Of a stretch of 64,000 nucleotides of DNA, positions 5,824 through 57,144 are shown piece by piece. This DNA comes from a virus. The notes beneath the pieces are model-generated. The model ran no database searches. It was not told where the DNA came from and saw only the letters and a program-made list of their open reading frames with translations. Both the position numbers and the translations under genes were made by a program. Within the stretch, counting starts at the first letter, position 1. Every line of letters begins with the position of its first letter. The DNA lies in the IMG/VR virus record IMGVR_UViG_3300009194_000005, positions 52,525 to 116,524 of that record. The stretch is one strand, 5' to 3'.

Positions 5824-6633
5824 TTATTGAACGAGTTCGAGGACAGGGCGCCAGCATCCGCTTGATGATCTCCATTGCGGTATGTTTGACGACATACCGA
5901 GTAAACCGTGATAGCCCCTCATTATGCGGGAATAGGTGGTGTGTGTATGGGTCTCTTTCACAAAACTGTATCGGTTTAGTTTTATGTCTAGAAATTCGTT
6001 GGTGTATGTAGGCCAGTCACCGCCAGGAGAGTAATCGGAATGTACACGTTTCAACAATTCGTCCCATTCGGAACCTGGGCCATCGGTAAACACGTTAACG
6101 TTACGCTCAGCTCCGCTAGGGTCGTTGACTGAACCATTGAGGAGGCGAACCTTGAAGGTAAGGTTATTTTTAGTTAACAAGGTGTTCTGGTTAACACCGG
6201 TTGTCGGTGGGAATGCCCCTACTGTGTCAGTCCCGTATACTAAACCTAAATTGTAAAGCTCGTTTACGGTCACATTACTGCGGACATTTTTGCTGGCAAC
6301 AAATAAAATTTTTCCGTTAAATCCAAACTTAAGCCAAGAGAAACCGGCATCGCTAAGCTCAACTCCCGAAGACATTCCTGTAATAGTCGATAACTCAGTC
6401 CTTGTAAAAAGCTCAGTGTCGGGGACCTCCCCATAAAAATCGACAACTCCATCAGTAGCGATTATCTGACTTCCACTCATTACCGATTGAGTCCCCACCA
6501 CTTCAAACCCACCCAGGGTTTGGCCATCATGTAAGCGGACTGCCTTTTTCTCTAAGTCAATCGACAATTCCCCTTCCGGGAGCGTCAACCCATTATTCTC
6601 CGCGGTCGTCCCGCGTAAAAACCGTGTACGCAT
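5824..6633 (-). CDS. Tail-fibre-like protein with Mtd-type N-terminus and C-type-lectin-like C-terminus
   Basis: 269 residues. The N-terminus MRTRFLRGTTAENNGLTLPE followed by GELSIDLEKKAVRLHDG matches the beta-prism head-binding domain of Mtd-like receptor-binding proteins. The C-terminus GCWRPVLELV is the end of a C-type-lectin fold like that of DGR target proteins. It is a paralogue of the genes at 16536, 17399 and 49688. Its last 100 nt do not match either template repeat in the window, so I do not call it a DGR target. Probably displayed on the virion for host binding. Start fixed by homology with the paralogues. Confidence 0.75.
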   Translation of the reverse strand: MRTRFLRGTTAENNGLTLPEGELSIDLEKKAVRLHDGQTLGGFEVVGTQSVMSGSQIIATDGVVDFYGEVPDTELFTRTELSTITGMSSGVELSDAGFSWLKFGFNGKILFVASKNVRSNVTVNELYNLGLVYGTDTVGAFPPTTGVNQNTLLTKNNLTFKVRLLNGSVNDPSGAERNVNVFTDGPGSEWDELLKRVHSDYSPGGDWPTYTNEFLDIKLNRYSFVKETHTHTTYSRIMRGYHGLLGMSSNIPQWRSSSGCWRPVLELVQ

Positions 6634-8214: not shown

Positions 8215-8490
8215 TTAAGCCGCCTTCGCGGCATGAGCACTGTCTAAGGTGGCGTGAAACTGTTCCACGTTCCATTTCGCCGTACACCCACACCGACAGC
8301 GAATTTCTAAGCGCGTTCCGACTAAACAGAAGCTTGCCGTCATACGATCACGCCGATACCAATTGTGACACAAGGGACACATCCGATCCCAGGTACGGTT
8401 CATGTAACTGTTGAAGTGATATTTTGCCCACTGACGTCGGTTAAGATACCCCCTCACCCGACCGATAATCCCCTGCGCCATGATGTACAT
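8215..8490 (-). CDS. Small zinc-ribbon protein
   Basis: 91 residues (82 or so if the ATG at 8481 is used; both ATGs share one AAGGA). Two cysteine pairs are visible: CPLCHNW near residue 38 and CRCGC near residue 66. These could bind one zinc in a ribbon. The N-terminus is basic (RVRGYLNRRQWAKYHFN), which would suit nucleic acid binding. It overlaps the end of the GIY-YIG gene by about 50 nt. Confidence 0.55.
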   Translation of the reverse strand: MYIMAQGIIGRVRGYLNRRQWAKYHFNSYMNRTWDRMCPLCHNWYRRDRMTASFCLVGTRLEIRCRCGCTAKWNVEQFHATLDSAHAAKAA

Positions 8491-14739: not shown

Positions 14740-14768
14740 GCCTTCCCTACGGGGAAGGCTTTTTTTTT
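14740..14768 (+). terminator. Rho-independent terminator
   Basis: The stem GCCTTCCC TAC GGGGAAGGC is followed by nine T. It ends the plus-strand unit 12220-14729. Its T-tract overlaps the stop codon of the convergent reverse transcriptase gene. Confidence 0.9.
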
Positions 14769-15801
14769 ACCTTAATCGGAACCGCCCTAAATTATCGAGG
14801 GTAAGGAAATCGTAATCATTGAGCAAGGCCCTAATAAAATACTGCGGGTTAGCATGTTGAGCGAAGGCCAACCAACTATTAAGACGTTGTTCAATAACAC
14901 GGTAAGACAGTCCTTGTTCCAGTAGTGCGGGTGTTTTATGCAAAAGCTTTCGTATTCGTGACTTCTGTCGTCCCAGTAAATAAAGCCGTTCTTGAGTAAT
15001 GAAAAACCCTAAGGTCGAAACACCATGTTTAACCGGCAACGATTGGGTTTTGCGGGGATGTAACGTAAGACGTAAATTATCTTTAAGGAACCCATCAATC
15101 AACTCGTTTATTATATCGGCATTAGTTTTATCCGTCGTTGTCACTACAATATCATCGGCGTAACGGACGTAGTGTTTTATACGCAGTTGGCGCTTACAGA
15201 ACTGGTCAAGTTCATTAAGAAAGATATTAGCAAATAGTTGGCTGGTTAAATTACCTAACGGTAGCCCTGGGTTGATCGGACTAGAATCAATGATCTCATA
15301 TAACAATGTCAGAGTTAACGGGCATGTGACTACTTTGGTCAAGATGTGCTTGAGTATGTCATGGGGTATCGAGTAAAAGAACTTCGAGATGTCACTTTTT
15401 GCGAGGTGGCCTTGGATATTGTATTCTATCTGAATTGCCCTTAATTGCCGTTGGATGGTGAGCACTGCTCTGATATTACCCCGACCTTCGATACAGGCGT
15501 AAGAATCACGTATAAACAAGGGATAATACCGTCGTGACAACACATTATTGAGCATATGTTGAACGATTTTATCGCGATATGACGGTGAGAAGATAACCCG
15601 TTGTTTTGGTTCATGTACTAGAAACGACGCATAAGGTCCCGGGCGGTAGGTCCCATTATGAAGTTCACTGACCAACTTGTCCAGTTCATGAAACTGCTGT
15701 CGTTTAAACTTAACGGCGGCGGGTTTGTGTTTAGGCGCACCACGTTGTGTCGCGTTGAACGCTTCTGAGATGTTAGCCTCGTGCATGATATCGTTAAACA
15801 T
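14767..15801 (-). CDS. DGR1 reverse transcriptase
   Basis: 344 residues. Catalytic motifs are intact: KSDISKFFYS with Asp137, LPLGNLTSQLFAN at about 180-192 (the GxxxSQ form typical of DGR reverse transcriptases) and YVRYADD at 211-217. RVIFSPSYRDKIVQHMLNN and RGNIRAVL are the usual finger motifs. There is no maturase or endonuclease domain, as in other DGR enzymes. It makes mutagenised cDNA from TR1 (15970-16057), which lies upstream of it on the same strand, for transfer into the 3' end of the target gene 16536-17387. It is clearly different from the second reverse transcriptase at 47772-48887. Confidence 0.93.
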   Translation of the reverse strand: MFNDIMHEANISEAFNATQRGAPKHKPAAVKFKRQQFHELDKLVSELHNGTYRPGPYASFLVHEPKQRVIFSPSYRDKIVQHMLNNVLSRRYYPLFIRDSYACIEGRGNIRAVLTIQRQLRAIQIEYNIQGHLAKSDISKFFYSIPHDILKHILTKVVTCPLTLTLLYEIIDSSPINPGLPLGNLTSQLFANIFLNELDQFCKRQLRIKHYVRYADDIVVTTTDKTNADIINELIDGFLKDNLRLTLHPRKTQSLPVKHGVSTLGFFITQERLYLLGRQKSRIRKLLHKTPALLEQGLSYRVIEQRLNSWLAFAQHANPQYFIRALLNDYDFLTLDNLGRFRLR

Positions 15802-15829
15802 CGGTTACCCCATTACGGCATAATTGGGC

Positions 15830-15862
15830 GACTACCCCCACAGCGTGATGGGAGGGGTAGTC
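15830..15862 (-). repeat. Hairpin between TR1 and the reverse transcriptase gene
   Basis: Inverted repeat GACTACCCC / GGGGTAGTC (9 bp, 15-nt loop). A 12-bp hairpin occupies the same place in DGR2 (48926-48959). Both may belong to the structured template RNA or regulate reverse transcriptase expression. Confidence 0.5.
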
Positions 15863-15969
15863 ATAGTGTGTTCTCGTTATCTAGGTAACGAACGATTTCG
15901 CCCCCTTGACGAACTATAACATGCGGAAGGCGGCCTTAGCGACCAAACCATCAGATAAACAGCCGTCAG

Positions 15970-16057
15970 GGCAAGGCCGCCAACCATTATTCGAATTCGT
16001 ATTCGACGAAGTATTCGTGTTGAAGTTCGTCAAGGACGAATTCCCTCGGTTGACGTG
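15970..16057 (-). repeat. DGR1 template repeat (TR1)
   Basis: 88 bp matching VR1 (16553-16640) without gaps at an offset of 583. The 11 differences are all A in TR1 on the coding strand. Read in frame it is rich in AAY codons (NSSLTNFNTNTSSNTNSNN followed by GWRPC), the usual design for adenine mutagenesis. The GC-rich end GGTTGGCGGCCTTGCC is invariant and corresponds to the initiation-of-homing region. It is followed by a different sequence (IMH*) after CCTTGCC. Confidence 0.93.
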
Positions 16058-16082
16058 CATTATAGACCAAACCGTTTACATA

Positions 16083-16418
16083 CTATTGGGTTAATTGGCT
16101 TACCACACCACTCAGGATAATTTCTGTGTCGCGACACACATTCTCCAGAAAACCCTCTGTTATATATCCTTCCTTATATGCCAGTTGGTGAACCGTCATT
16201 AACGACACCAAGGTGGCTTGAGTTTTCTTTAACGCGTCTTTTCGTGCTGCACCGTGGGTGAATTCAGCAAGGTGTAATTGAAATAACCCCTCAAAGGCTT
16301 TCTGTTTGATAATCTGACACATCCCTGTATGTTCGTGACGCGGGTAGTTACGAAATGTAGGCAACATCGTCCCTAGCAGGGTTTCCATACGTGATGAAAG
16401 TTCGGTTATTTTCGACAT
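16083..16418 (-). CDS. avd: DGR1 accessory variability determinant (Avd-like)
   Basis: 111 residues, helical and basic, placed between target gene and TR1 as in the Bordetella phage DGR. The pattern METLLGTMLPTFRNYPRHEH ... LVSLMTVHQLAYKEGYIT fits the four-helix-bundle Avd family, which binds reverse transcriptase and template RNA. The matching protein in DGR2 (49206-49547) shares the 'yptl.nfPr.e' helix start and 'lv.l...ayr..fi' segment. Identification is by position and pattern. Confidence 0.8.
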   Translation of the reverse strand: MSKITELSSRMETLLGTMLPTFRNYPRHEHTGMCQIIKQKAFEGLFQLHLAEFTHGAARKDALKKTQATLVSLMTVHQLAYKEGYITEGFLENVCRDTEIILSGVVSQLTQ

Positions 16419-16438
16419 TTTTCTATATAAATTTAGGG

Positions 16439-16477
16439 GCGGGGTCCCTCGTCGACAGGCTCCTCGAAGGACCCCGC
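16439..16477 (-). terminator. GC-rich hairpin downstream of the DGR1 target gene
   Basis: Perfect 9-bp stem GCGGGGTCC / GGACCCCGC around a 21-nt loop, between the target gene stop and avd. There is no T-tract. It may reduce readthrough, or be the hairpin that promotes retrohoming downstream of VR in other DGRs. Confidence 0.45.
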
Positions 16478-16535
16478 TGTGGTCGTGACGAATACATGGT
16501 TCGTCTCTGCGTATTATTACCCTACCCAGTCATTC

Positions 16536-17387
16536 TTACACGACCAGTTCCAGGCAAGGCCGCCAACCATAAGTCGAAATCGTATTCGACGAAGTATTCG
16601 TGTGGAAGCCCGCCAAGGACGAAAGCCCTCGGTAGACGCGGTACCCCGAATTCGATGCTGCCGTCTCTTGGGTCCAGCTGGCGCGTCCGTTACCGGTCCC
16701 CACGACGATGTCGGTATCGGTGTAAGAGGCCCAGTTTGTGCCGGTGGGGTCATCGACATGTACCCGGTAAATTAAGTCATTCCACTCCCCACCGGCACTG
16801 GAGGCTGGGTCCGCGTCACCACCGGTCAACAGACGGACACGGAAGGTGTCATTAAAGTCCGAGGTAAACTGGGCGTCGGTCTCACCCCCATACACCGCAT
16901 TCACCGCCGCGATATGATCCCAACTTACGCTGTGACGATACGGTTTCTTCGCGACGAACAGCGTCTTACCGTGATGATTGAATTTCAACCAGGGTTCACT
17001 ACTGAATTGTGACGTACCCGCTGTAAGGCCCAGAGAGGTCGCCAGAGCGTCGCCATCCACCAGGTCGGTCACTAGGGTCTCCCCATAGAACCCAAGCCTG
17101 TGATCGCCCGCTGAGAGCGTCTGAGGGCCAGGACCGGTCAGGATCGGTAGCGCCTTACCGTGAATCAGGTTACTGAAGGCGCTGTCATTCCCCCGGTAGG
17201 TCTCGAAGAGGTAGTAATACTCATCGCCCCGCGCCACAAAGGTATCCTCGTACACCTTGGTACCCGCCACGAGTTCATCGTGGGTGGCACCCGGCAGGGT
17301 ATCTTTATCGAAGGGGGTAGCGCTACGCCACACCCGGATGCCGTCCTCATTGAGGTTACGGTTAGTAAACTTAAACGTAATGCTCAT
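16536..17387 (-). CDS. DGR1 target: variable C-type-lectin fibre protein
   Basis: 283 residues. Unlike its paralogues it lacks the RFLRGTT N-terminus and instead begins with a fibronectin-like or beta-rich module (MSITFKFTNRNLNEDGIRVW). The shared middle domain follows (LGFYGETL ... WLKFNHHGKTLFVAKKPYRHSVSW), then the C-type-lectin end SWTQET ... GYRVYRGLSSLAGFHTN ... YGWRPCLELVV. The last ~90 nt before the stop are VR1, whose differences from TR1 change Asn codons to Tyr, Leu, Gly, His, Ile and Thr. Probably a receptor-binding tip protein. It starts 11 nt after the stop of the upstream paralogue. Confidence 0.88.
   Translation of the reverse strand: MSITFKFTNRNLNEDGIRVWRSATPFDKDTLPGATHDELVAGTKVYEDTFVARGDEYYYLFETYRGNDSAFSNLIHGKALPILTGPGPQTLSAGDHRLGFYGETLVTDLVDGDALATSLGLTAGTSQFSSEPWLKFNHHGKTLFVAKKPYRHSVSWDHIAAVNAVYGGETDAQFTSDFNDTFRVRLLTGGDADPASSAGGEWNDLIYRVHVDDPTGTNWASYTDTDIVVGTGNGRASWTQETAASNSGYRVYRGLSSLAGFHTNTSSNTISTYGWRPCLELVV
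16553..16640 (-). repeat. DGR1 variable repeat (VR1)
   Basis: Copy of TR1 at the 3' end of the target gene. Gap-free over 88 bp with 11 substitutions, all at template adenines (coding strand): AAC to TAC, AAT to CTT, ACG to GCG, AAC to GGC, AAC to CAC, AAT to ATT, AAT to ACT, AAT to TAT and CAC to CGC. Adenine-only change is the signature of DGR retrohoming. Confidence 0.93.
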
Positions 17388-17398
17388 GTCTCTCTCCT

Positions 17399-18271
17399 TT
17401 ACGGGGCGTCACTGTAAGACCAGTCGTACACGTACGACGGTTTCACATAGTCGGTTTCATAATAGATGTCTTCCGGCGGGAAGAGGATCTTGGTCACTGT
17501 GGTCAACTCCAATACCGGCCGCCACCCCATCGTGGCCGTAACGGTAGTCGCCGCGACACTATCATAGTCGGCGATCGAGGTTTGACCGCGCCCCACCCGG
17601 TTGGCCAGCGTCCCAGAGATGGCTTCCTGGACCCAGCTGGTGGCGCCATTGCCTGATCCGACTCCCAACTCGGTGGTCGTTAATGAAGCAAACGTCCCGT
17701 TGGTGACTGCCACCATCAACTGGTCCCATTCGCCGCCCGCTCCCGTAGCGGGATCGGTATTACCACCAGTTAACAGTCGGGTTTTAAATCCATCAGTACC
17801 GATTAACGTTGGGGAGAACTGGTTAGCGTTTGCTCCCGCTGGGTGAATCCCCACATCGTCCACCCCATAAACCAGACCGGACTGGTAGAGGGTTTCCCAA
17901 CTCACGCTATGGCGAATCGGTTGTTTTGCCACGTAGAGGATTTTCCCCTGATAGGCAAACTTCAACCATGCAGTGGTGGAATTCATCCCCACCCCTTCTG
18001 ACACCCCCATCTCATCGGTTAACTGATCACCAGTAATAAACTCCGCGGCACTGATCTCACCAAAGTATCCGAGCTGGTAATCACCAGCCACTAACGTCTT
18101 GGGACCCGGGCCTAAGTTAAAGGCCATGTTACTGGGGCATTCAAAGCCCCCTTGCGTCACCCCATCATGGAGACGCAAACTCATGTCATCGAGATTGATC
18201 GAAATCTCACCTGCGGGTAACGTAAGGCTATTATTCTCCTCTGTCGTCCCGCGTAAGAAACGCACTTTCAT
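17399..18271 (-). CDS. Tail-fibre-like Mtd-type/C-type-lectin paralogue
   Basis: 290 residues, beginning MKVRFLRGTTEENNSLTLPA and containing SINLDDMSLRLHDGVTQGGF (head-binding beta-prism type) and WLKFAYQGKILYVAKQPIRH. The lectin end NRVGRGQTSIADY ... MGWRPVLEL is followed by about 30 more residues (ending YDWSYSDAP), so the WRP motif is not at the terminus. Its codons do not match TR1 or TR2. It may be a non-diversified partner of the neighbouring DGR1 target or a former target. Same operon as the target gene. Confidence 0.75.
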   Translation of the reverse strand: MKVRFLRGTTEENNSLTLPAGEISINLDDMSLRLHDGVTQGGFECPSNMAFNLGPGPKTLVAGDYQLGYFGEISAAEFITGDQLTDEMGVSEGVGMNSTTAWLKFAYQGKILYVAKQPIRHSVSWETLYQSGLVYGVDDVGIHPAGANANQFSPTLIGTDGFKTRLLTGGNTDPATGAGGEWDQLMVAVTNGTFASLTTTELGVGSGNGATSWVQEAISGTLANRVGRGQTSIADYDSVAATTVTATMGWRPVLELTTVTKILFPPEDIYYETDYVKPSYVYDWSYSDAP

Positions 18272-18380: not shown

Positions 18381-18569
18381 TCATGCGAACGTCATCGCAT
18401 TCTTGCTGAAGAACAAATCAAACCGAATGGCTTCAATCTTCTCCTGTAAATGCTGGGTTTGTTTCACGCGTTTTGTGGTGAAACGGTTGCCCCATTTCTT
18501 TTCCAGCAGACGCTTATAGCTACGATAGGGGGCAGTGCGGCGTTCAAATTCACGAGTCAGGTCACTCAT
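18381..18569 (-). CDS. Small basic hypothetical protein, 62 aa
   Basis: 62 residues rich in Lys and Arg (RSYKRLLEKKWGNRFTTKR), with no membrane segment. It has its own CTATAT-type promoter 50 nt upstream, a clear ribosome-binding site (ACAGGAG) and a strong terminator, so it is an independent early-type monocistronic gene. Small basic early proteins of phages often target host functions; nothing more can be said. Confidence 0.6.
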   Translation of the reverse strand: MSDLTREFERRTAPYRSYKRLLEKKWGNRFTTKRVKQTQHLQEKIEAIRFDLFFSKNAMTFA

Positions 18570-18617
18570 GGGGTATACTCCTGTAAGTTCTTTCGTTTTC
18601 TGTGGAGAGTTCTCATA

Positions 18618-18632
18618 GGAGTGATATAGGTC
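18618..18632 (-). promoter_or_regulatory. CTATATYAY promoter motif
   Basis: On the minus strand GACCTATATCACTCC lies about 50 nt upstream of the 62-residue gene. One of six copies in the window (25235, 30220, 43404, 43958, 57176). Confidence 0.6.
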
Positions 18633-18659
18633 TTAAATTGCATGGAATCGGGAGAAAAC

Positions 18660-18680
18660 GCCGCCCCGAAGGACGGCGGG
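18660..18680 (-). terminator. Terminator
   Basis: On the minus strand CCGCCGTCC TTCG GGGCGGCG is followed by TTTTCT. It lies downstream of the 130-residue gene and ends the long beta-beta'-helicase transcript. Confidence 0.7.
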
Positions 18681-18695
18681 TTTATGTCGTCGGGA

Positions 18696-19088
18696 TCACT
18701 CAACAGACGTTCCAACTTCCCCGGTGCCGGCCGTTAGGGGGTTGATGCGAATGGGGTGTTCGTCCAGATAGGCAGCAATCCCGTGCTGGCGCATGGCATC
18801 CATGATGGGGGCGGTGTACTGGGGCACCTGAAGCAGATTCACCAGCGCGTCCACCAACAGGGTCAGGAAACTCTCATAAGTCTCCTGATCCACCTGCTCC
18901 TCTTCAGGAATGGTCACCGTTACCGTCTGGTTAATCAACAGGATCATCAACTGTCCTTTGGAGATCACCAGGCGATCCATTGGTGCTGCCACCACACTTT
19001 CCGGTTTGGCGTCCGGGTTCTTGGCGTTCACCTTATTAAACACACCAATGAACTTCTCGATCTGGCCGGGAGGCACGTGCAGTCCCAT
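18696..19088 (-). CDS. Hypothetical protein, 130 aa
   Basis: 130 residues. The middle is hydrophobic beta-strand rich (GQLMILLINQTVTVTI) and a helical segment follows (ESFLTLLVDALVNLLQVPQY). It starts 12 nt after the helicase stop and shares its transcript, which ends in the terminator just downstream. No family recognised. Confidence 0.55.
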   Translation of the reverse strand: MGLHVPPGQIEKFIGVFNKVNAKNPDAKPESVVAAPMDRLVISKGQLMILLINQTVTVTIPEEEQVDQETYESFLTLLVDALVNLLQVPQYTAPIMDAMRQHGIAAYLDEHPIRINPLTAGTGEVGTSVE

Positions 19089-19100
19089 AGGATTGGCTCC

Positions 19101-20630
19101 TTACAGTTTCATCATTTTGTGGGTTTTCACCCGGTTATCAAAATACTTCTGCTTATTCTGGTGGTAAGAAATGTGCTTCTTTATATCCGTACACACCATG
19201 TAGGTGAAGCGTGGAGATACGTCAGGGAAGTCTTTCATCTTCCTCAAACGACCCAGTACCTGAATGTTATCTTTCTTGGAGTCCGTGGCCTGAAGCATCA
19301 ACACTTCCCTCAGGTTGGGAATATCCACCCCGGTTCCCGACGACTTGATCGTGGATACGGTAATGTCGTTGGTGAGGAGCTTCTTGTAATCGCTTCCCGC
19401 GACGTGCATGCCGATGGTCAAGTCAGGGAACTGTACCTTAAGGTATTTGGTAAGGTGTTGGATGAACTCCACTGTCGCACAGAGAATCAGGAGCTTTTGT
19501 CCTTCCACCCGATCATGTACGTAAATCCCATTGACCGTCCGACGCACTAAGCCGAAGTACCGCTCCAACCGACGCTTTTGTTTTAGCATGCGGGTTTCAT
19601 AACGGGCGTGGTTATACGTTCCTTTAAAGGGGGCCAGGTAGTCCGTCTTCTGGATTTTGGGATCATTGTACAACAGCGCGATCACGTTAATGTACACACT
19701 TAGATCAGGTAAGGGAACGCCCATCGAATGCGGGACCATCTGATCGATCATGCGGGTGACAAAGTCGCTGCCTGTGTAGGGGGTGGCTGACAAGTAGATC
19801 TGTTTGCGCACATTGGTGTATATATCAATACGAAACACCAGACCGGGATCTTCTTGGTATTCGTCATTGATTTGCACGCCAATTTGTAAGAACTCATGGA
19901 AACGAGGCGGGGGGACCAAATACCCCATCTCGCCAATCTTATCGCCCCACTTTTCAAAGTTCTCGATATACGCGCGGTAGGTGGTGGACGATATCAACAC
20001 AACATCATAAGGAAAATCCCCATCGGCGACTTTCTGCATGATGGCTTTGAGTTCGTCTGACCCTGACACTGTAACGTGGCGATTTTCAATGTCTTCGTAT
20101 GTTTCACGAAGTGCCTTGACCCAGATCCCGAAATACTTCGGGGGAATCATGATCAAGATGCGCTCGCCCATGTCGGCACAGGCCCAGAGTGCTGACAGCG
20201 TCTTACCAAGTCCGGTTTGAAGATCAACTCGTTTCGAGTATTGCTCGTCTTTTAGGGAACGAATTATAGGACCTTGGTAGTCCCTCATCACAAAATGAGG
20301 ATACAACGTAAGTTCAGCTGGGGCTGCATCAGGATAAGGAATCTCCACCAGTTCGATTTTATCACGATCCACCCCACGGTCCACGATGAACCCAATAAAC
20401 TCGTCTACGTGATGACGATGGATATACACTTCAGTTTGGTCTTCAAAACACCCAAAGTAGCGTTTCTTGATGACCGTACGAAACCCACCGCCCATATGGG
20501 GCGGGACTTTCTCTAGCTCCTTTAATTTCAGACTTTCCAAAAAATGAGCAATCTTAGGAAACAGCTCACGGCGGTATCCGCTAATGCGGGCGCCGTGAGA
20601 ATAGCGTTCGATGCGGATAGCCGGGGTCAT
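19101..20630 (-). CDS. Superfamily 2 DNA/RNA helicase (UvsW-like)
   Basis: 509 residues with ordered SF2 motifs: MRDYQGPII (Q-like, about 115), VDLQTGLGKT (motif I, Walker A, about 135-144), NDEYQE (motif II, an unusual DEYQ instead of DEAH or DEAD, about 254-259), LSATPYTG (motif III), VSTIKSSGTGVDIP (motif V) and QVLGRLRK (motif VI). The organisation and small N-terminal domain resemble T4 UvsW-type helicases that remodel branched DNA or R-loops. It follows the beta' subunit gene by about 45 nt. In phiKZ, as I remember, a helicase (gp75) follows the corresponding RNA polymerase gene. Confidence 0.85.
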   Translation of the reverse strand: MTPAIRIERYSHGARISGYRRELFPKIAHFLESLKLKELEKVPPHMGGGFRTVIKKRYFGCFEDQTEVYIHRHHVDEFIGFIVDRGVDRDKIELVEIPYPDAAPAELTLYPHFVMRDYQGPIIRSLKDEQYSKRVDLQTGLGKTLSALWACADMGERILIMIPPKYFGIWVKALRETYEDIENRHVTVSGSDELKAIMQKVADGDFPYDVVLISSTTYRAYIENFEKWGDKIGEMGYLVPPPRFHEFLQIGVQINDEYQEDPGLVFRIDIYTNVRKQIYLSATPYTGSDFVTRMIDQMVPHSMGVPLPDLSVYINVIALLYNDPKIQKTDYLAPFKGTYNHARYETRMLKQKRRLERYFGLVRRTVNGIYVHDRVEGQKLLILCATVEFIQHLTKYLKVQFPDLTIGMHVAGSDYKKLLTNDITVSTIKSSGTGVDIPNLREVLMLQATDSKKDNIQVLGRLRKMKDFPDVSPRFTYMVCTDIKKHISYHQNKQKYFDNRVKTHKMMKL

Positions 20631-41422: not shown

Positions 41423-43321
41423 TCAGTAGAGACGACCGCCACCAGTGACACCGCCGTAAGACGGACCACCGGAGTAGGTCTGACCACCACCGTAGCCCAT
41501 GGAGGCAGCACCAGACACCGCGTACTGGCCCACCATGGTGTTGCCTGCGAAGCGCTGACCGCCGATCACGGTGGTCATGGACTCGAAGTCCACATGCAGG
41601 CCTGCCTCGTGAGTGGCCTTGTCGAGCGCCTGAATGAACTCAGCGGTCAGGATCAGACGCACGGCACGACCGGTGATGCGCAGTCCCTTGGACAGGAACT
41701 GACGCTCCAGCTGCTCACGCTGTTGCATGCGCAGTTCGAACGGGCGGGACGGATCGCAATAAGTGGCGTACCACTCGTTGAAGGTCTGCATGTCACCTTG
41801 GGTCAGGTTGAGCATGGCCAGCACATCCAGGTCGCGGATATCCCGCTTCTCGCCGTCTTCGCCGATGTAATAGCCGAGGTGCACTTCCATGTTGGAGGGC
41901 ACCACGATCGGACGATCCTGCGGGAAGTGAGTGGAGAACCGACCGCCGGTCAGGTTGTCGGCAGCCTGGATCAGACGGCTGACGGCCTTGTTGCGGTTGG
42001 GGCCGTCACCGGCTGCATCGAGGAAGTAGTTCTCGATGGAGGCGTGGTCACCCACCGGGTTCACATCCAGCATGAACACCGGGTTGGGCTGGACGAGCAT
42101 GCTCATCATGTCAGCAAACTCTTGATCGGTGAAGGAGTCCGACTTGGTCTCGAACTTCTTCATGCTCTGGGTCTTGTAACCCAGGGCACCGATGTCCTTC
42201 ATGTCGATCCCGGCCTTACCGACCTGCGGACGGAAGGTCTGGGCCCAGGCGGTACCGGCGGTCACGCGGAATGCGTTGGAGATCGCCAGCAGGTACAGCT
42301 CGAAGGTCTGCGCCTGAATCCAGTCCGCCTGATCGACGGAGGTGATCACGAAGGAGGGAGTGAACAGCGGCTGAGGCTGCTGGGGCTGACCCCAACCCAT
42401 GTGCGGCTGTTGCTGCTGAGCACCAGTGTACTCCAGGTTCACGAAACCAGAGACGCTGTTGAAGTGCGTCTCGACTTCGTAGAAGTCCTCTTGTGCCTGG
42501 TTGTTGTTCACCTGACGGTTGAGCGACACCTGGATGTCGTTACGCACCGGCATGCCAGTGATGTCGTAGGACGGCTCACCAGTGAAGTCCACCCGTGCGG
42601 TGAGGCGCTCATCGTTGCGCTTGATTGCAGACACATTGAGCGGCTGTTCGCCCATCAGCATAGCCACCACGTCATCCACACGGTTGACGGAGGTCACCAG
42701 CAGACGAGCGACGAGATCCACTTCGGTGAAGTCGAACTCACGCGGGATCACCAGCGGGCCAGCGTCCACGACTTGCATCTCAGTGATGCCCTTATTGCGC
42801 TGCATGAACTCAGTGAGGCGCGCCAGGTAGATGTCGTTGAACACGTCCTGGGGGCGGGTCGGAGTCTCGATGCGATGAGAACCGTACTGCACCACGCGCG
42901 GCGGCAGGCGGACGCCCTCGGTATCGAGGATCAGGGTACGGACGATGGAGTACATCTTGCCCTGGACCTTGACGGACTTCGCCACGAGGATCGCGGAGAG
43001 GCCCACACGGTGCTGATCACGGTCGAAACGGATCAGCTCGAAGTCGTCGGACAGCTGCTGGCTGTTGATGGCTTCCTTGGATGCGTCGGTGAGTGCACGC
43101 AGGGCTTCGGCACTACGACCTTCGCTGCGGTCATAAGAACCGCTACGACGGAAGAGTTGGTTCATCGCACCGAAGCCGGCGGGACCTTGTTGCGGCTGCT
43201 GGGGCTGAGCGGTTTGCTGGTAGCCGGTGTTCTGCTGTGCCTGCTCCTGGTAGCCGGTGTTCTGCTGCTGAGACTGCTCCTGACCGGCTTGCTGGGACTT
43301 ACCCTTATCATGAATGGCCAT
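41423..43321 (-). CDS. chmA: Probable chimallin (ChmA), phage nucleus shell protein
   Basis: 632 residues, close to the 600-630 residues I remember for chimallins. A Gln-rich flexible N-terminus (residues 1-48) is followed by GFGAMNQLFRRSGSYD, a large alpha/beta core, and a Gly/Tyr-rich flexible C-terminal tail. Terminal interacting segments around a two-domain core are how chimallin subunits join in the shell lattice. Codon use is visibly more GC-ending than in neighbouring genes, as in highly expressed genes. It has its own promoter motifs and terminator. It neighbours the beta' N-terminal gene as gp54 neighbours gp55 in phiKZ, and PhuZ is present in the same genome. The call rests on synteny, size and architecture. 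Confidence 0.65.
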   Translation of the reverse strand: MAIHDKGKSQQAGQEQSQQQNTGYQEQAQQNTGYQQTAQPQQPQQGPAGFGAMNQLFRRSGSYDRSEGRSAEALRALTDASKEAINSQQLSDDFELIRFDRDQHRVGLSAILVAKSVKVQGKMYSIVRTLILDTEGVRLPPRVVQYGSHRIETPTRPQDVFNDIYLARLTEFMQRNKGITEMQVVDAGPLVIPREFDFTEVDLVARLLVTSVNRVDDVVAMLMGEQPLNVSAIKRNDERLTARVDFTGEPSYDITGMPVRNDIQVSLNRQVNNNQAQEDFYEVETHFNSVSGFVNLEYTGAQQQQPHMGWGQPQQPQPLFTPSFVITSVDQADWIQAQTFELYLLAISNAFRVTAGTAWAQTFRPQVGKAGIDMKDIGALGYKTQSMKKFETKSDSFTDQEFADMMSMLVQPNPVFMLDVNPVGDHASIENYFLDAAGDGPNRNKAVSRLIQAADNLTGGRFSTHFPQDRPIVVPSNMEVHLGYYIGEDGEKRDIRDLDVLAMLNLTQGDMQTFNEWYATYCDPSRPFELRMQQREQLERQFLSKGLRITGRAVRLILTAEFIQALDKATHEAGLHVDFESMTTVIGGQRFAGNTMVGQYAVSGAASMGYGGGQTYSGGPSYGGVTGGGRLY

Positions 43322-45667: not shown

Positions 45668-47797
45668 TCAATAATAGTCGGAGATGAGGCGGGCAATCTT
45701 CTTATCTTGCATAAAGATCCCCAATGATTCCAACATGAGGTAGAACACCCCCATGGTATTGAAGATGATCTTTCTCGCGTCGATACCCGCCACGATCTCT
45801 TTCGGTATACCCGATGTTTCCACAACTGTTGCTGGGATCAATAGGGTCGAGAGATCCTTACGTCGACGTTCAATCATCCATGCCTTGAGTCGCTCAGCGA
45901 GTGCTGGGTTCTCCATACGCTCACACCATGCATCAAGGTCTGTTTTATTGCCGACAGCCAACGACACTTTCACCACAGCGTAGGGAGGCTCTTTGGTTTC
46001 ACCCAGGGAAGGTGCAAACACATCCCGCCATAGTTCGTAGTGCATGTAGTTAGACACGTCTGGGTTTTTGTATGATTCCTTAGACTTTACCTGCCCTGAG
46101 GTCATGTATTCTGACTGGCCGTTCTGAATACTTGCCATGATGTCACGTTCGATATCGCCGATACGTTTAAGGATATCACGGATGTCGAGTTTCTCTTCGG
46201 CTTTGATGGCGGCAATGATCTCTTCCATCATCTCCTTGGCGGTGTCATTAATGCGCTTAGGGACCTTTGAATCCCTAAGCCCTACCCCTTTCACCTCTAG
46301 CTTGGCTTTCGGGAACATCAAGCCTTCCTGGGCGTCCTGGGAGGCATAATAATGCTTCGACCGAGTGGTCATCGAGAGAACGGCAAAATAGAACTCGTTC
46401 TTCATTGCCAACAGGCGTAGGCGTTTATCAGACACCCCCATGTTAGCCGACTGAATGGCCAGGATATGCAGGATCAACTCACTGACCAAGAAGACCAAAC
46501 CGAATACTACTCGTTTGGCTTCAGGGGCATAGCTCACATGGCCAAAACACTGTTCTACCCAATATTGCATGGTGAACATGGTCGAGTCGGTGTCTGACAC
46601 AATCGCTGCACGACGGTAGGCGCTCGGAAAAGCATGGATCGAGCTGGGGACGGTGTTGGTTAGCCAAAAGGCGTGGATCAAGGTTTGGTATTTGGTCAGT
46701 ACGTCAATTGTGCGCTTTCCACTGACCTTAATCCGTTCCCAGATTTCCGGGTTATCTTTGAGTAGTTCTTCTTTGGTACGTCCTGCCACCTCATCAAAAC
46801 ACAAGAAGTTTGAGAGCATTTGGACGTCTTCGTCCAGCTCGTTATACGCCTCATCGCTGAACTGTTCTTGGTTCTCGTCGCCCTGTTGAGCTAGCTCTTT
46901 TAAGAACCCAACCACAAATTCCGGATTGAGCTTATGGAGGTGGTAGAGGTCTGATACATACAGAAAGGCGGCACGCTCATCGGGAGTGAGGTTCTCAGCA
47001 ACGGTACGAAACTTCTGAATGTGTTGTGGTGACTCCCAATAGAGATCGCTGGAATATCGGATACATTCGATAACATCTTCCGGCGTGGGATACTTGAGAT
47101 TAAATTGTTCCATCGCCTGACGGACTTTGGTGAGGTCTGTCTCACTGACAATAGCCAGTAGATTGGCTTTGGTGACTTCCGGATCATAATAGTGACGATT
47201 ACCCGCCAGGAACTTCTCGTTAGCCGAGTTGGCGTAAGACGTGGCCGTACGAACGGTGGAAGTCAAGGAACTGTGGGTGGACTTATAATAGAGGATCGTG
47301 GCGGTCGAAACCGTCGCCCCTGAATAGGAGTTATTGTTGATTTTGAGGTTATTCTGCTCACCTTTCTTGACCAACGCCAGCTCTTCGTTACCCTGACGTT
47401 CTGCCTCAAACATCTCCTTCTTTACGCCCTTACGCTTCTTGACACCTTCTTCGATGTACTGGGCGTGGGTGGCTTGTTTCACGTGATCGGGCAGATACGC
47501 CGCCATCGACGGCGACAACGTGAAGTTATTTTTCTTAACGCGATTCAAGAACGTCATGAAAGTGATGCCATCTTTCTGACGATCGCCATTCTTATCTTTG
47601 GCGAGTACCAGGGCACGCGGGTCTTTGAAGCCGCCTTCTTGTTTCGGGTGGGTTTTACGTTTCACGAAGTCCAGACAGTCGTCTAGAGGTTGTCCTGTTT
47701 GAAGGTGGAGGTACTTCGCCGCCTGGTTGTGGTAACCTTTAATGATATCCAGGTCGCGTTGGTATTCGTTGTCAGGCAAGATAAAGGGGTTCTGCAT
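45668..47797 (-). CDS. Family B DNA polymerase, C-terminal half (motifs B and C)
   Basis: 709 residues. KGEQNNLKINNNSYSGATVS (about 147-166) is polymerase motif B (KxxxNSxYG), and AAIVSDTDSTMFTMQYW (about 401-417) is motif C with the catalytic DTD. No exonuclease motifs and no motif A are present; both lie in the gene at 2625-4874. The 146 residues before motif B probably include the rest of the palm and fingers. The two proteins should associate to form one polymerase. GGAG precedes the ATG, which lies 26 nt inside the end of the DGR2 reverse transcriptase gene. Confidence 0.85.
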   Translation of the reverse strand: MQNPFILPDNEYQRDLDIIKGYHNQAAKYLHLQTGQPLDDCLDFVKRKTHPKQEGGFKDPRALVLAKDKNGDRQKDGITFMTFLNRVKKNNFTLSPSMAAYLPDHVKQATHAQYIEEGVKKRKGVKKEMFEAERQGNEELALVKKGEQNNLKINNNSYSGATVSTATILYYKSTHSSLTSTVRTATSYANSANEKFLAGNRHYYDPEVTKANLLAIVSETDLTKVRQAMEQFNLKYPTPEDVIECIRYSSDLYWESPQHIQKFRTVAENLTPDERAAFLYVSDLYHLHKLNPEFVVGFLKELAQQGDENQEQFSDEAYNELDEDVQMLSNFLCFDEVAGRTKEELLKDNPEIWERIKVSGKRTIDVLTKYQTLIHAFWLTNTVPSSIHAFPSAYRRAAIVSDTDSTMFTMQYWVEQCFGHVSYAPEAKRVVFGLVFLVSELILHILAIQSANMGVSDKRLRLLAMKNEFYFAVLSMTTRSKHYYASQDAQEGLMFPKAKLEVKGVGLRDSKVPKRINDTAKEMMEEIIAAIKAEEKLDIRDILKRIGDIERDIMASIQNGQSEYMTSGQVKSKESYKNPDVSNYMHYELWRDVFAPSLGETKEPPYAVVKVSLAVGNKTDLDAWCERMENPALAERLKAWMIERRRKDLSTLLIPATVVETSGIPKEIVAGIDARKIIFNTMGVFYLMLESLGIFMQDKKIARLISDYY

Positions 47798-48887
47798 GAG
47801 GGTCGTCTCCGGAAGGGGTTCTCTCTATGGGATAAGGCGGGCGGGTACTTTCCCTCAACGAGAACTGATGACGTTGCCAGTCAAATACGACATAAGGGAA
47901 CTCCCTTAGGAGTTGGTATATGAACCCATGGTGTTTGGCGATTGACATGACATTCAACCACGCGTTTAGTTTCTCTATTACTTTTCTCCATTCCCGGTAT
48001 GATAATTGACCGACGGGTATGTTCCTGATGTAGTGTCTGACTTTTCTTTTGAATTTCCCTAACAAGCGAATATGGTCATGGTAAATAAGAAACCCAAGAC
48101 CCACAATCCCAACATGTAGCGGCCTGACCTGCGATTTCTGTGGGTGTACGTCTAATGCAAGTGTGTTGTTTATCCATCTGGTAAGGTGGTTTAATAACCG
48201 ATGGGCGTTTTCTTTCCCTTTAACCACAATGAAAATATCGTCCGCGTAACGTAAATAGTATCTGAGTTTAAGTGCGGTCTTACAGTATTGGTCTACGACG
48301 TTCATGTACAGATTAGCTAAGAGTTGGCTGGTTAAGTTACCCAAAGGTAATCCAATGTGTCCTGGACTTCGCCTAACAATCGTTTTTAGTAGGTCTTTGG
48401 TGCGTTGGCAAACAAATTCAGCGCCTATGATCGATTCTAGGATAGTTCGTGATATACGATAGAAAAACTTTACGATGTCTAGTTTTAGAATATAGGCTTC
48501 TCCACCATAAATATCTCTTACCTGGGACAACAGCGTCTGTATCCTCAATACTGCTCGCTGATTCCCTCTTTCGGTAATACATGCAAACGAATCATCAATG
48601 TATTTCTCTTTCAGATAAGGCGCTACCACATTGTTGATAGCGTGTTGGACAATTTTGTCTTCGTAAGAGGGCGCGTAAATCAATCGTTCTTTGGGTTCGG
48701 TCACATAGAATTTATTATACGGTTTTGGATGGTAAGTTCCATCCATTAACCTGCGACGCAGCTGTTCTAATCCAACCTGACTATTAAAATAGAAGTCTAT
48801 CGCGGCGACTTTAAGCTTGGAAGTTCCTTTCTGTGTTTTAAGGTAGGCGTCCCATACGTTGGCCGGTGTGGTAATTTGATCAAACAT
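47772..48887 (-). CDS. DGR2 reverse transcriptase
   Basis: ATG at 48885-48887 (AGGGA upstream) gives 371 residues. Motifs: KLDIVKFFYRIS with Asp137, LPLGNLTSQLLANLYMN (about 180-196) with the GxxxSQ signature of DGR enzymes, and YLRYADD (211-217). KERLIYAPSYEDKIVQHAIN and RGNQRAVLRIQ complete the fingers. Motif spacing is the same as in the DGR1 enzyme, but the sequences differ widely, so the two DGRs are not a recent duplication. Its 3' end overlaps the start of the DNA polymerase C-terminal gene. Confidence 0.93.
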   Translation of the reverse strand: MFDQITTPANVWDAYLKTQKGTSKLKVAAIDFYFNSQVGLEQLRRRLMDGTYHPKPYNKFYVTEPKERLIYAPSYEDKIVQHAINNVVAPYLKEKYIDDSFACITERGNQRAVLRIQTLLSQVRDIYGGEAYILKLDIVKFFYRISRTILESIIGAEFVCQRTKDLLKTIVRRSPGHIGLPLGNLTSQLLANLYMNVVDQYCKTALKLRYYLRYADDIFIVVKGKENAHRLLNHLTRWINNTLALDVHPQKSQVRPLHVGIVGLGFLIYHDHIRLLGKFKRKVRHYIRNIPVGQLSYREWRKVIEKLNAWLNVMSIAKHHGFIYQLLREFPYVVFDWQRHQFSLRESTRPPYPIERTPSGDDPHAEPLYLA

Positions 48888-48925
48888 TAAGTTCCCTGAA
48901 ATACTCCCTGATGGCATAACACACA

Positions 48926-48959
48926 GTCCTGAGGGGTGGTCTTACGAACCCCTCAGGAC
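48926..48959 (-). repeat. 12-bp hairpin between TR2 and the reverse transcriptase gene
   Basis: Perfect inverted repeat GTCCTGAGGGGT / ACCCCTCAGGAC with a 10-nt loop, in the position equivalent to the DGR1 hairpin. About 90 nt between it and TR2 show nothing else. Confidence 0.6.
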
Positions 48960-49076
48960 AGGTACTTCTTTTCGTCTGGTAGTTTATCCAGACGCGATTG
49001 AGCCTCCTTTGACCGACAGTGAGAAAAGGAGTAAAGAAACCGTAGTCGCTTTATCGTTACTTATCTCGGCGGCCAG

Positions 49077-49162
49077 AGCAGGCCGCCACCCGTTGTTGGT
49101 ATTCGTATTCGTCGCAGTATTGCGATTGAAGTTCGACACACCATTGTTACCACGATTGACGC
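49077..49162 (-). repeat. DGR2 template repeat (TR2)
   Basis: 86 bp aligned without gaps to VR2 at an offset of 629. The 16 differences are all at adenines of the coding strand. In frame it reads VNRGNNGVSNFNRNTATNTN and then TNNGWRPAL, again full of AAY codons. The end ACGGGTGGCGGCCTGCT is invariant. It is different from TR1, so each DGR serves its own target. Confidence 0.93.
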
Positions 49163-49205
49163 AAGTTTAAGACTCAATCGCAATAGCAGAAATGCTATTT
49201 CCAAT

Positions 49206-49547
49206 TTATCCCGATAACAACTCCCGGTGATTATGGGAAATAACATTCAATTTATATATGACATCATTATGGAACTCTTGATTGACGAATCGGTGTCGGT
49301 ATGCAAAATTCCAAAGGCTTACCAATATGTAAACATCTGCAATATTGTCACGTAAATTAGCTTTGCGTTTTGATGTCGTTTCATAAGCATGTAGTAATCT
49401 CGCCATTATAGAATGACTTATGTCCTTGATTCTTGCCGCGCTGCTGGGCTGTTCATACCTAGGAAAATTCTTTAACGTTGGGTAAATGTAATCAAACCAA
49501 ACTTCCATTTCGCGATATAGCTTAAGAAAAACTTCTTTACGGTACAT
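49206..49547 (-). CDS. avd: DGR2 accessory variability determinant (Avd-like)
   Basis: ATG at 49545-49547 with AGGAAAAG upstream gives 113 residues, nearly the same length as the DGR1 protein. The pattern FDYIYPTLKNFPRYEQPSSA ... KRKANLRDNIADVYILVSLW fits the helical-bundle Avd family. It lies between the target gene and TR2. A longer frame to 49676 would run through a strong terminator and is rejected. Confidence 0.82.
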   Translation of the reverse strand: MYRKEVFLKLYREMEVWFDYIYPTLKNFPRYEQPSSAARIKDISHSIMARLLHAYETTSKRKANLRDNIADVYILVSLWNFAYRHRFVNQEFHNDVIYKLNVISHNHRELLSG

Positions 49548-49563
49548 ATCTTTTCCTGTTTGG

Positions 49564-49606
49564 TAAAAAAGCCTGTGCCGGATGGAAAGAAGACCATCCG
49601 GCACAG
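49564..49606 (-). terminator. Strong terminator between DGR2 target and avd
   Basis: On the minus strand the 13-bp perfect stem CTGTGCCGGATGG / CCATCCGGCACAG is followed by GCTTTTTTACC. It should separate abundant target mRNA from the low-level avd-TR-RT transcript. Confidence 0.85.
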
Positions 49607-49679
49607 TATAGTGCACATACGTAATTCCGTCGACTGCGTCAGCGACGTGGCGCTTCCGACGGTCGTCGACGTCCACTCA

Positions 49680-49696
49680 GTGGTCTGTTAGACCAC
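49680..49696 (-). repeat. Hairpin at the end of VR2
   Basis: Perfect 7-bp inverted repeat GTGGTCT / AGACCAC with a 3-nt loop, overlapping the stop codon, 10 nt after the end of VR2. Hairpins or cruciforms at this place raise retrohoming in the Bordetella phage DGR. TR2 lacks it. Confidence 0.65.
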
Positions 49697-50554
49697 GAGC
49701 TCCAAAGCAGGCCGCCACCCGCCGTAGGTAACCGCAGACGCCGCAGTACGGCGAGTGAAGTACGACACACCATTGTGACCACGAAAGACGCGGTAGGAAT
49801 CGGTACTCTCTTGGGTCCAGCTATAGCTACCGTTACCAAAACTGTTATGGACTAACAGGTCGGCATCGCTGTAGCTGGCCCAGCTCCCGTACGGGTCTGC
49901 ATTCGGGTCAGTATGCGGGGTGGGGTTGGAGGAGTCAGTGTGGACACCCGAATGAATGGGGTAGAACAGACGGTTCCATTCGGAACCATAGCCCTCGGGA
50001 ATATCATACCCGTAGGGGTTACCCGCCACCGGGTCGGTGGCCGCCCCACGCAATAATCGGACCCGATAGTCGAATCCATCGATGGTCACCACCGCGTCTT
50101 GCAAGCGGGCGGTACCGGAGGGATTGCTGCCGTTGGTATCGTCCCCGTACACGGCGCCCGCCTGGTAGATGTGTTCCCAGGAGGTACTGTGACGGAACGT
50201 CAGCTTGGGCACCAGTATCACCTGACCATTCGAGGCGAACTTGAGCCAGTCGCTGGTGCTGTTTTGACTGGTGCCAGCACTGAGTCCAATCGCGGACGCT
50301 AAGGCGTCACCGGTAATGAAATCCGTGCTGGCGACTTCACCGTAGAACCCCCACGTCGCGTCCCCACCGATCAAGGTGGTGGAGCCATGTCCCACCGGCT
50401 CGTAGGCTTGAGACCCAATGATTTCATACCCACCGGGTGTGACGCCGTCATGTAACCGGACGGCTTTGGTTTCCTCATCAATACTGATTTCCCCTTCGGG
50501 TAAGATCAGTCCATTGTTCTGATCTCGCGTCCCTCTTAAAAACCGTGTCCTCAT
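49688..50554 (-). CDS. DGR2 target: Mtd-like variable tail-fibre protein
   Basis: Start at the MRTRFLRGT position shared with the paralogues, 288 residues. Order: head-binding beta-prism (MRTRFLRGTRDQNNGLILPE, then SIDEETKAVRLHDGVTPGGY), the shared middle domain (WGFYGEVA ... WLKFASNGQVILVPKLTFRH) and the C-type-lectin fold (SWTQESTDSYRVFRGHNGVS ... GGWRPALELVV). The terminal segment is VR2, diversified from TR2 at Asn codons (to Phe, His, Tyr, Thr, Arg, Ser, Val and Gly). Likely the receptor-binding protein, or one of two interchangeable ones. Confidence 0.9.
   Translation of the reverse strand: MRTRFLRGTRDQNNGLILPEGEISIDEETKAVRLHDGVTPGGYEIIGSQAYEPVGHGSTTLIGGDATWGFYGEVASTDFITGDALASAIGLSAGTSQNSTSDWLKFASNGQVILVPKLTFRHSTSWEHIYQAGAVYGDDTNGSNPSGTARLQDAVVTIDGFDYRVRLLRGAATDPVAGNPYGYDIPEGYGSEWNRLFYPIHSGVHTDSSNPTPHTDPNADPYGSWASYSDADLLVHNSFGNGSYSWTQESTDSYRVFRGHNGVSYFTRRTAASAVTYGGWRPALELVV
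49706..49791 (-). repeat. DGR2 variable repeat (VR2)
   Basis: Gap-free copy of TR2 with 16 substitutions, all at template adenines on the coding strand, affecting at least 11 codons. Invariant GC-rich 3' end GGTGGCGGCCTGCTTTGGAG, then the hairpin. Confidence 0.93.
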
Positions 50555-50627: not shown

Positions 50628-50657
50628 AAAAAAAAAGCCCTCCCGACAGGGGAGGGC
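50628..50657 (-). terminator. Terminator
   Basis: On the minus strand GCCCTCCC CTGTC GGGAGGGC is followed by at least nine T. Ends the unit coming from 50736 and isolates the DGR2 target gene. About 75 nt between it and the 50736 gene show nothing further. Confidence 0.88.
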
Positions 50658-50735: not shown

Positions 50736-51146
50736 CTACGCACGGACTTGGACATCATCCGGACGGAAGCCATTCGCCGACAGAGCATTGAGCATCCGAT
50801 CCACTTCCAGTTGAGTGCGGTTCTCAAAGACCATGGTCACCTGACCTCCTTGAGAAATCTGAATGGTCTCCTGGCGAATCCACTGTACCGCCAGGATGTC
50901 GTACGCGCCATTCGGGTGCTGGATACGAATATAATCGAAGGTGAACGGATCATTCGGTGTCCCTGCCGGTAGGCTCGGGTAGACCGCTTGATGCATGGCC
51001 TCAATGTCAAGACCGAAGTTCAGCGCCATCTGAGCACTGATGCGGCCTTCCAGACGTACGTCACGGAAGTTATGACCGATCACGGAAGTCGGGTAGACTT
51101 CAAAGCTAAAGCGCTGATTGATATCCACGTCACGAATAGTGGGCAT
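50736..51146 (-). CDS. Hypothetical beta-barrel-type protein, 136 aa
   Basis: 136 residues with alternating strands (RFSFEVYPTSVIGHNFRDVR ... FTFDYIRIQHPNGAYDILAV). The pattern fits a small SH3-like or OB-like barrel with a C-terminal helix (LEVDRMLNALSANGF). No family identified. It lies 21 nt after the previous gene in a leftward run of small genes. Confidence 0.55.
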   Translation of the reverse strand: MPTIRDVDINQRFSFEVYPTSVIGHNFRDVRLEGRISAQMALNFGLDIEAMHQAVYPSLPAGTPNDPFTFDYIRIQHPNGAYDILAVQWIRQETIQISQGGQVTMVFENRTQLEVDRMLNALSANGFRPDDVQVRA

Positions 51147-56121: not shown

Positions 56122-57144
56122 TCAGTCAACGTAAAACCAATCTTTGTATTTTTCGGTATCGCGATTGACCCAACGTTGTACAGAGGAGAAGTTAAGATTT
56201 AATGTCCGTGCTGCATCGCGAACGCTTGGATAAACCACTCCATGAATGCTAACTTTCCTAACCGGGGCTCCCGCCGTACTCTTCCTTCGGGATTTTCTCA
56301 TATTTGCTCGATGTTCTTCAGTGAATACAACGCCCTTGTAGATAAAAGAGGCTAATGCGTTTTTCGCATCCGGGGAACTATTAAACAAAACACCCGAGTC
56401 CCAGTTCGCCTGCAACAATGCTTGTTCTATTTGATATGCATGTTCCCTGTCTTTTGCCTTAAAACACACAGCCTTTATTGTCGGTGAATCAATATAAGCC
56501 TTCTGTAAACATGAATTTGCGTGTTTGTTTTTCTTAAGCGAATTACGATGTGTCAGTAATCTCGAATACAGATTAGAGGTGCTACCGATATAGGACTGAC
56601 CGGTTTCGGGATGATGAATCACATAGGCTCCTGGTATTGTCGAACCGAAACATACCTGTTCAGTTATGACTTCCAACCCCTCAATTCCCAACAATTGAAT
56701 CTCTTCTTGCATTACCAAATCTACGAACTTCTCAGACACTACGCCACTTGGTGAATTTAAACGAATTGAATAATCCTCCTCACTTCGTTCAGCCAATTCC
56801 ATGACCTGTGTGGTGGTTTCCGTGCCGTTAGTTTGCTGATTAGTTCCTGCGTTAAGGGATCGTTTCTGTTTAGTGTAGTAGTCGATTAGACCCTTCTTAA
56901 GTTCATGTAGATTATCCTTTTCTTTTGCTATGTAGTAGACATGATAAATATTTGGGGAATCATTGTAAGCCTCCTGCAGCTCAAGGTTAGGATGTCGATT
57001 ATTCTTTAAGAGCCGGTAATGTTTATACACACGTCTATTGGGTGTATTTGAAATCCCAACGAAAGCCTTTCGTGTCTTGACGTGGTGGATTATGTAGATA
57101 ACCCGCTCGCGCTCGTCATGTTTAAACTCAACTTCACTGAACAT
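56122..57144 (-). CDS. GIY-YIG family protein with two GIY-YIG-like units
   Basis: 340 residues. Unit 1, VIYIIHHVKTRKAFVGISNT (about 14-33), has weakened GIY and YIG elements. Unit 2, GAYVIHHPETGQSYIGSTSN (about 172-191), keeps the Y-I-G, the following Arg (LYSRLLTHR) and a Glu (YQIEQALLQ). A NUMOD3-like basic helix (TEEHRANMRKSRRKSTAG) and a NUMOD1-like segment (YPSVRDAARTLNLNFSSVQR) follow. Free-standing, with its own CTATAT-type promoter. Likely a homing endonuclease. Shares the tandem-domain architecture of the protein at 8441-9793. Confidence 0.75.
   Translation of the reverse strand: MFSEVEFKHDERERVIYIIHHVKTRKAFVGISNTPNRRVYKHYRLLKNNRHPNLELQEAYNDSPNIYHVYYIAKEKDNLHELKKGLIDYYTKQKRSLNAGTNQQTNGTETTTQVMELAERSEEDYSIRLNSPSGVVSEKFVDLVMQEEIQLLGIEGLEVITEQVCFGSTIPGAYVIHHPETGQSYIGSTSNLYSRLLTHRNSLKKNKHANSCLQKAYIDSPTIKAVCFKAKDREHAYQIEQALLQANWDSGVLFNSSPDAKNALASFIYKGVVFTEEHRANMRKSRRKSTAGAPVRKVSIHGVVYPSVRDAARTLNLNFSSVQRWVNRDTEKYKDWFYVD

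Follow-up and report, generated by a model that had tools for sequence, protein, structure and literature searches.

The window analysed here is a stretch of 64,000 nucleotides that corresponds to bases 52525-116524 of a 116.5-kb virus record (G000, IMGVR_UViG_3300009194_000005). Within it we observe a complete DGR, DGR2, whose target T2, VR2, Avd2, TR2 and RT2 all lie on the minus strand.

49688..50554, minus strand: T2, cis target of DGR2, a C-type-lectin-like virion protein with an Mtd_N-like N-terminus (phrog_1062, 3.6e-43; phrog_16120, virion structural, 2e-30; weak Foldseek matches)
49706..49791, minus strand: VR2, 3′ end of T2
49706..49720, minus strand: G+C-rich IMH-like end of VR2, GGGTGGCGGCCTGCT
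49680..49696, minus strand: perfect inverted repeat GTGGTCT-AAC-AGACCAC directly downstream of VR2, containing the stop codon
49573..49606, minus strand: intrinsic terminator between T2 and Avd2 (13-bp stem, T6)
49206..49547, minus strand: Avd2, accessory variability determinant (PF22296 bAvd, 2.4e-6, under the curated cut-off; phrog_3206 Avd, 1.4e-6)
49077..49162, minus strand: TR2, template repeat, placed by TR/VR alignment
47772..48887, minus strand: RT2, DGR reverse transcriptase (phrog_1423, 8.5e-94)

RT2 is encoded by an open frame that retains all invariant motif residues, and our tree places it among the RTs of phage DGRs, that of BPP-1 included. The best PDB match of the RT alignment is 8ub7 (3e-66), which is labelled there as a reverse transcriptase and which we take to be the BPP-1 RT. 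Homologues that can be aligned to Avd2 adjoin related RTs, in agreement with its assignment as an Avd. The Avd2 ORF extends to 49676; translation probably begins at the ATG at 49547, and that of RT2 probably at the ATG at 48887, both of which have a ribosome-binding-like sequence.

The gap-free alignment of TR2 and VR2 spans 86 bp and contains 16 differences, all of them (16/16) at TR2 adenines, and the 62 non-adenine positions are identical (62/62). The coordinates and counts in an earlier note on this DNA thus proved correct. The hypergeometric p for this adenine bias is 7.6e-12, and a chance match can be ruled out (p 8e-12 in round terms). Divergence sets in right after the G+C-rich end common to VR2 and TR2, as expected of an IMH. 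In phage-type DGR target sites the VR is followed, at a distance of 4-34 bp, by a hairpin of 7-10 bp whose loop is a GRNA tetraloop (PMC3240598); the hairpin after VR2 has a perfect 7-bp stem, but its loop is AAC.

The genes around DGR2 identify its carrier and the site that it occupies.

41423..43321, minus strand: nuclear shell protein, chimallin (phrog_4795, 3.7e-165; phiKZ-like homologues)
45668..47797, minus strand: divergent family B DNA polymerase (PF20286, 3e-288)
47818..47829, minus strand: CATAGAGAGAAC leader of the polymerase gene, at the downstream border of DGR2 and now within the RT2 frame
50637..50657, minus strand: terminator after SH3DP, at the upstream border of DGR2
50736..51146, minus strand: SH3DP gene (PF20287, 2e-35), the usual direct neighbour of the polymerase in 67 relatives

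Chimallin has its best matches in Noxifer, PhiPA3 and other phiKZ-like phages, and the window also encodes split multisubunit RNA polymerases, recognised by RNAP subunit families. Since chimallin and these RNAPs, the gene set of Chimalliviridae, occur together with the divergent family B polymerase, the carrier is by gene content a nucleus-forming, phiKZ-like (Chimalliviridae-like) jumbo phage, known from metagenome contigs. A second record, IMGVR_UViG_3300027365_000009 (G001, 149.9 kb), overlaps the 116.5-kb record over 70.9 kb with one mismatch. The phage shares with PhiPA3, 201phi2-1 and Noxifer the chimallin, the divergent polymerase with its SH3DP neighbour, the multisubunit RNAPs and the lectin-like virion protein families. 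Homing endonuclease-like genes lie at window positions 8441-9793, next to an RNA polymerase subunit gene, and 56122-57144. In a related record the helicase homologue is interrupted by a stretch of about 1 kb within one open 873-aa frame, which looks intein-like (L286, G003:C1:54598-57147).

The site of DGR2 is otherwise a conserved one. Of 80 related loci, 67 have SH3DP on the same strand as the polymerase and 0.02-1.6 kb upstream of it (2.9 kb in one case). L063, the closest relative, has between them a gap of about 165 bp that consists of a terminator followed by the CATAGAGAGAAC leader, the same motif that precedes the polymerase here. Both borders are kept in the window, with the terminator beside SH3DP, the leader beside the polymerase and DGR2 between them. 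The C-terminus of RT2 (window 47772-47860, the last ~30 aa) is read through what was once the polymerase leader, and its coding sequence shares 26 bp with the start of the polymerase gene. A search of 50 related records found a DGR RT in none (0/50), whereas the same search recovered two in the phage's own record. Together, this conserved arrangement and its retained borders show that DGR2 is a cassette inserted between two conserved replication genes. From the position of SH3DP in the 67 loci and the count of 0/50 we reject the idea that DGR2 is ancestral to the phage group.

The window contains a second DGR, DGR1 (14767-17387), which is equally complete and has the same gene order.

14767..15801, minus strand: RT1, the second phrog_1423 match of the record (3.7e-98)
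15970..16055, minus strand: TR1, placed by TR/VR alignment
16083..16418, minus strand: Avd1 (phrog_3206, 1.7e-3)
16536..17387, minus strand: T1, cis target of DGR1, with an N-terminus unlike that of T2
16553..16638, minus strand: VR1
17399..18271, minus strand: T3, lectin paralogue beside T1, with no VR match

TR1 and VR1 differ at 10 positions, all template adenines (10/10), and agree at 63/63 non-adenine positions (p 3e-7). In both DGRs the mutable codons are mostly AAY. No short hairpin comparable to that of VR2 was found after VR1. DGR1 sits in another conserved gap, between a phrog_4585 gene and a helicase; in the relative G004 a single lectin gene, without an RT, occupies this gap.

Scans of sequence outside the window that allowed any base at template adenines revealed further VRs for both templates. 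TR2 matches VR5, also called VR5(b), at G000:119-204 (60/62 non-adenine positions; 12/14 differences at adenines), a sequence also present in G001 and carried by a full-length lectin gene that is 73% identical to T2. A further TR2 match, VRa, lies at the right end of G060 (IMGVR_UViG_3300009194_000027, 36.6 kb), with the same counts (60/62; 12/14 at adenines), and TR1 matches VR9 at G060:1617-1702 (61/63; 12/14 at adenines). Each VR matches one TR only, so that TR1 has two (in T1 and T9) and TR2 three (in T2, T5a and T5b).

G060 (L373:1606-2376 and L374:16335-16554), G000:1-219 and L058:10660-11583: remote targets of the two DGRs
Window 17399-18271 and 5824-6633; L061:7665-8426 and 18460-19290: four lectin-like paralogues without a VR match

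T3, T4, T6 and T7 were rejected as further targets, as they hold no VR match to TR1 or TR2 (at most 39 of 62-63 non-adenine positions, against a background of about 33-34). In relatives that lack any RT, up to eleven matches to this lectin family occur. At L059:17202-17456 we found a truncated T1-like C-terminus with a TR1-type VR fragment (17216-17301); with agreement at 50/63 non-adenine positions it is decayed and was rejected as a live TR1 target, and it is apparently a dead former one. Immediately before their VRs the two T5-type genes are identical over >200 bp, and this repeat is where assemblies break or are wrongly joined.

The earlier note had described DGR2 as a second, independent element with its own template, Avd, RT and target, 33 kb from DGR1, and had pointed to clear differences between the two RTs, between the TRs and between the N-terminal parts of the targets. 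All of this holds. The spacing is 33.1 kb. As to the INDEPENDENCE of the two DGRs, the identity between RT1 and RT2 is 40-42%, and both are open and carry YADD and LGNLTSQ motifs. Over 82 aligned columns TR1 and TR2 show 72% identity, and Avd1 and Avd2 are 27% identical. T2 opens with an MRTRFLRG segment that is common to T3, T4 and T5 and absent from T1; this segment is Mtd_N-like by a sub-threshold match in T3. The identity of about 41% together with long terminal branches (1.3 and 0.9 changes per site) shows that neither enzyme is a recent copy of the other, and RT2 as a recent copy of RT1, the first of the refuting outcomes listed in the earlier note, is rejected.

An older duplication, with a single DGR giving rise to both elements within the phage lineage and subsequent divergence of the two, is a tentative alternative that we consider possible and on balance doubtful. 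RT1 and RT2 fall in one clade (support 100/97) that otherwise holds only L106-L109, DGR RTs on unrelated small viral contigs, and their sisterhood is supported at 77/58 in a smaller tree and 86/39 in a larger one and is not rejected; the identity of the TRs points the same way. The branching of RT1, RT2 and L106-L109 is a trichotomy (AU p 0.27-0.30). Against a duplication, the RT branches are very long and the Avd identity is low. In addition, T2 and T5 cluster with DGR targets of other elements (99/95) and T1 is placed elsewhere, though a joined T1-T2-T5 clade is disfavoured and not rejected (p 0.15). Because all tested relatives are without a DGR RT, such a duplication must moreover be old and yet confined to the present lineage.

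The separate pairing of templates and targets can be read from 16 diagnostic positions, defined as the TR1/TR2 differences at non-adenine bases. VR1 is TR1-type at 16/16 of these and VR2 is TR2-type at 16/16; among the remote VRs, VR9 is TR1-type at 16/16, and VR5(b) and VRa are each TR2-type at 15/16. Each VR is thereby assigned to one TR, and we see no sign of cross-talk between DGR1 and DGR2 at these sites in the consensus sequence. One TR feeding both VRs, which the earlier note had named as an outcome that would overturn its view, is rejected at the level of the consensus. Its proposal that two receptor-binding proteins are varied independently stands as regards the pairing, but the number was too small: since each DGR has remote targets outside the window, about five proteins would be diversified and not two. 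Use of each other's templates by the two RTs in the cell, hidden in the consensus, seems unlikely to us. In its favour, the RTs share a clade and the two TRs have IMH-like ends that are alike though not identical (GGTTGGCGGCCTTGCC versus GGGTGGCGGCCTGCTC); the cognate matches of 15 or 16 out of 16 in all five VRs argue against it.

G060 is linked to this phage by synteny and by the contig-end base that it has in common with G000, not by a continuous contig. Genes of G060 map to 157-189 kb of G004 and 146-184 kb of G003, and this interval is the stretch missing where G001 runs through the T5 gene (from 155 kb to 190 kb of G004). Within the T5 gene, one and the same base is where both G060 and G000 begin, and at its left end G060 carries the 5′ part of a further T5-like gene that enters the same repeat. 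The summed length is 232 kb, and the two nearest long relatives measure 231 kb. The simplest reading of these sequences is that two T5 genes (T5a and T5b) lie 36 kb apart in one genome and that G001 is mis-joined or a deletion form. That G060 instead derives from a different co-resident phage sharing a lectin gene segment, with T5-type VRs in two phages, we judge improbable. G060 does come from sample 3300009194, which also holds the related phage G002, and no continuous contig spans the join of G060 and G000; against this, its genes exactly fill the 35-kb gap that G001/G000 leave in their synteny with G003 and G004, the starting base is the same, and the summed length fits the 231-kb relatives. 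For the VR of G060, synteny likewise makes a second copy in the same genome more likely than an orthologous target in a sister phage.

Under either assignment of G060, the divergence of VRa and VR5(b) is confined to adenine sites. The two sequences have 0 differences in the 118 bp upstream and 13 in the VR, of which 13/13 fall at TR2 adenines (p 3e-9), a pattern that indicates recent mutagenic homing at the T5 targets. VRa and VR5(b) share two non-adenine differences from TR2, T13C and T82G, so they were not refreshed from exactly the present TR2 over their full length. T82G falls in the IMH-like end; for T13C, conversion of one gene copy by the other or descent from an earlier TR2 may be the cause. 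That DGR2 is decayed and its VR differences old, as the odd RT2 C-terminal extension over the polymerase and the invariance of VRs between G000 and G001 (VR1 and VR5 are identical) might suggest, is very improbable given the 62/62 non-adenine identity of TR2 and VR2, the open RT2 with all its invariant residues, and the adenine-only differences of VRa and VR5(b) next to identical upstream sequence.

The targets carry the VR at the 3′ end, the usual position. Foldseek with a target model (pLDDT 66) gave weak matches (E 0.02-0.1) led by Mtd variants and including TvpA and FGE-like folds; a PDB sequence search with the target proteins was a dead end. The virion-structural families together with these fold matches make a receptor-binding role of the targets likely. 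In the BPP-1 model, cDNA made from TR RNA enters at the IMH (PMC3240598). By analogy, RT2 and Avd2 would copy TR2 RNA into cDNA with errors at adenines, and this cDNA would replace the 3′-terminal VR in three genes for lectin-like virion proteins, T2 in cis and T5a and T5b at a distance; RT1, Avd1 and TR1 would act likewise on T1 and one remote target, T9. We put at about 0.88 the probability that DGR2 is a functional, self-contained DGR in a nucleus-forming jumbo phage that also carries a second, orthogonal DGR1; from sequence we infer both its current enzymatic activity and the biochemical orthogonality of the two enzymes. The phage nucleus normally keeps foreign proteins out, and work inside it would need import of RT and Avd. 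We lean modestly towards the fuller picture, in which two orthogonal DGRs run simultaneously in one nucleus-forming phage, each RT-Avd-TR set diversifying private, dispersed virion lectins (two and three genes), and the machinery is imported into, or acts on DNA within, the phage nucleus.

DGR specificity has so far been studied mainly one element at a time. Two DGRs kept apart by evolution, with several targets each, offer natural matched pairs of RT-Avd, TR and IMH for the study of template-target choice, and a natural test of whether two mutation engines can run side by side in one phage. Mutagenic retrohoming in a phage that holds its DNA in a protein compartment also makes it testable whether RT and Avd are imported and where the cDNA is synthesised.

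The chemistry of DGRs is known, and the present elements share with the Bordetella phage BPP-1 DGR (mtd-avd-TR-brt) the gene order, adenine-specific TR/VR differences, a lectin-like target with a 3′-terminal VR, an Avd and a DGR-type RT. They differ from it in occurring as a pair in one phage, in serving several remote targets, in lacking the hairpin with a GRNA tetraloop and in having a nucleus-forming jumbo phage as their carrier. Two-target phage DGRs have been described in Quimbyvirus (PMC8008677), in nd4/nd12 (PMC10743442) and in Faecalibacterium phages (PMC11792537). As here, one DGR serves more than one lectin gene, and in Quimbyvirus the second target is remote; those phages, however, have a single RT and TR set, whereas the present phage has two complete RT-Avd-TR sets, each with private targets. 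Genomes with at least two DGRs are known from Trichodesmium (PMC8867640), which also has remote targets, Bacteroides sp. 1_1_14 (PMC3521204) and Nanoarchaeota (PMC4372165), but these are cellular. We found no phage with two complete DGRs in the open-licence papers that we consulted, where a search for DGRs in nucleus-forming phages also led nowhere, and in a search of 50,697 phage records with RT1 and RT2 every matched record had one place only. A survey of 224 jumbo phages reported no FGS-type C-type-lectin domain of the DGR-diversified kind (PMC7824862), so that receptor diversification by a DGR looks new for the group. The combination of two orthogonal DGRs, each with several targets, in a single nucleus-forming phage likewise looks new. 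A Clostridiaceae bacterium contig (CAJTGE010000003.1) carries two different DGR-type RTs (L186 and L226) at a distance of about 29 kb, one of which has a clear repeat pair; the contig possibly holds one or two prophages with two DGRs.
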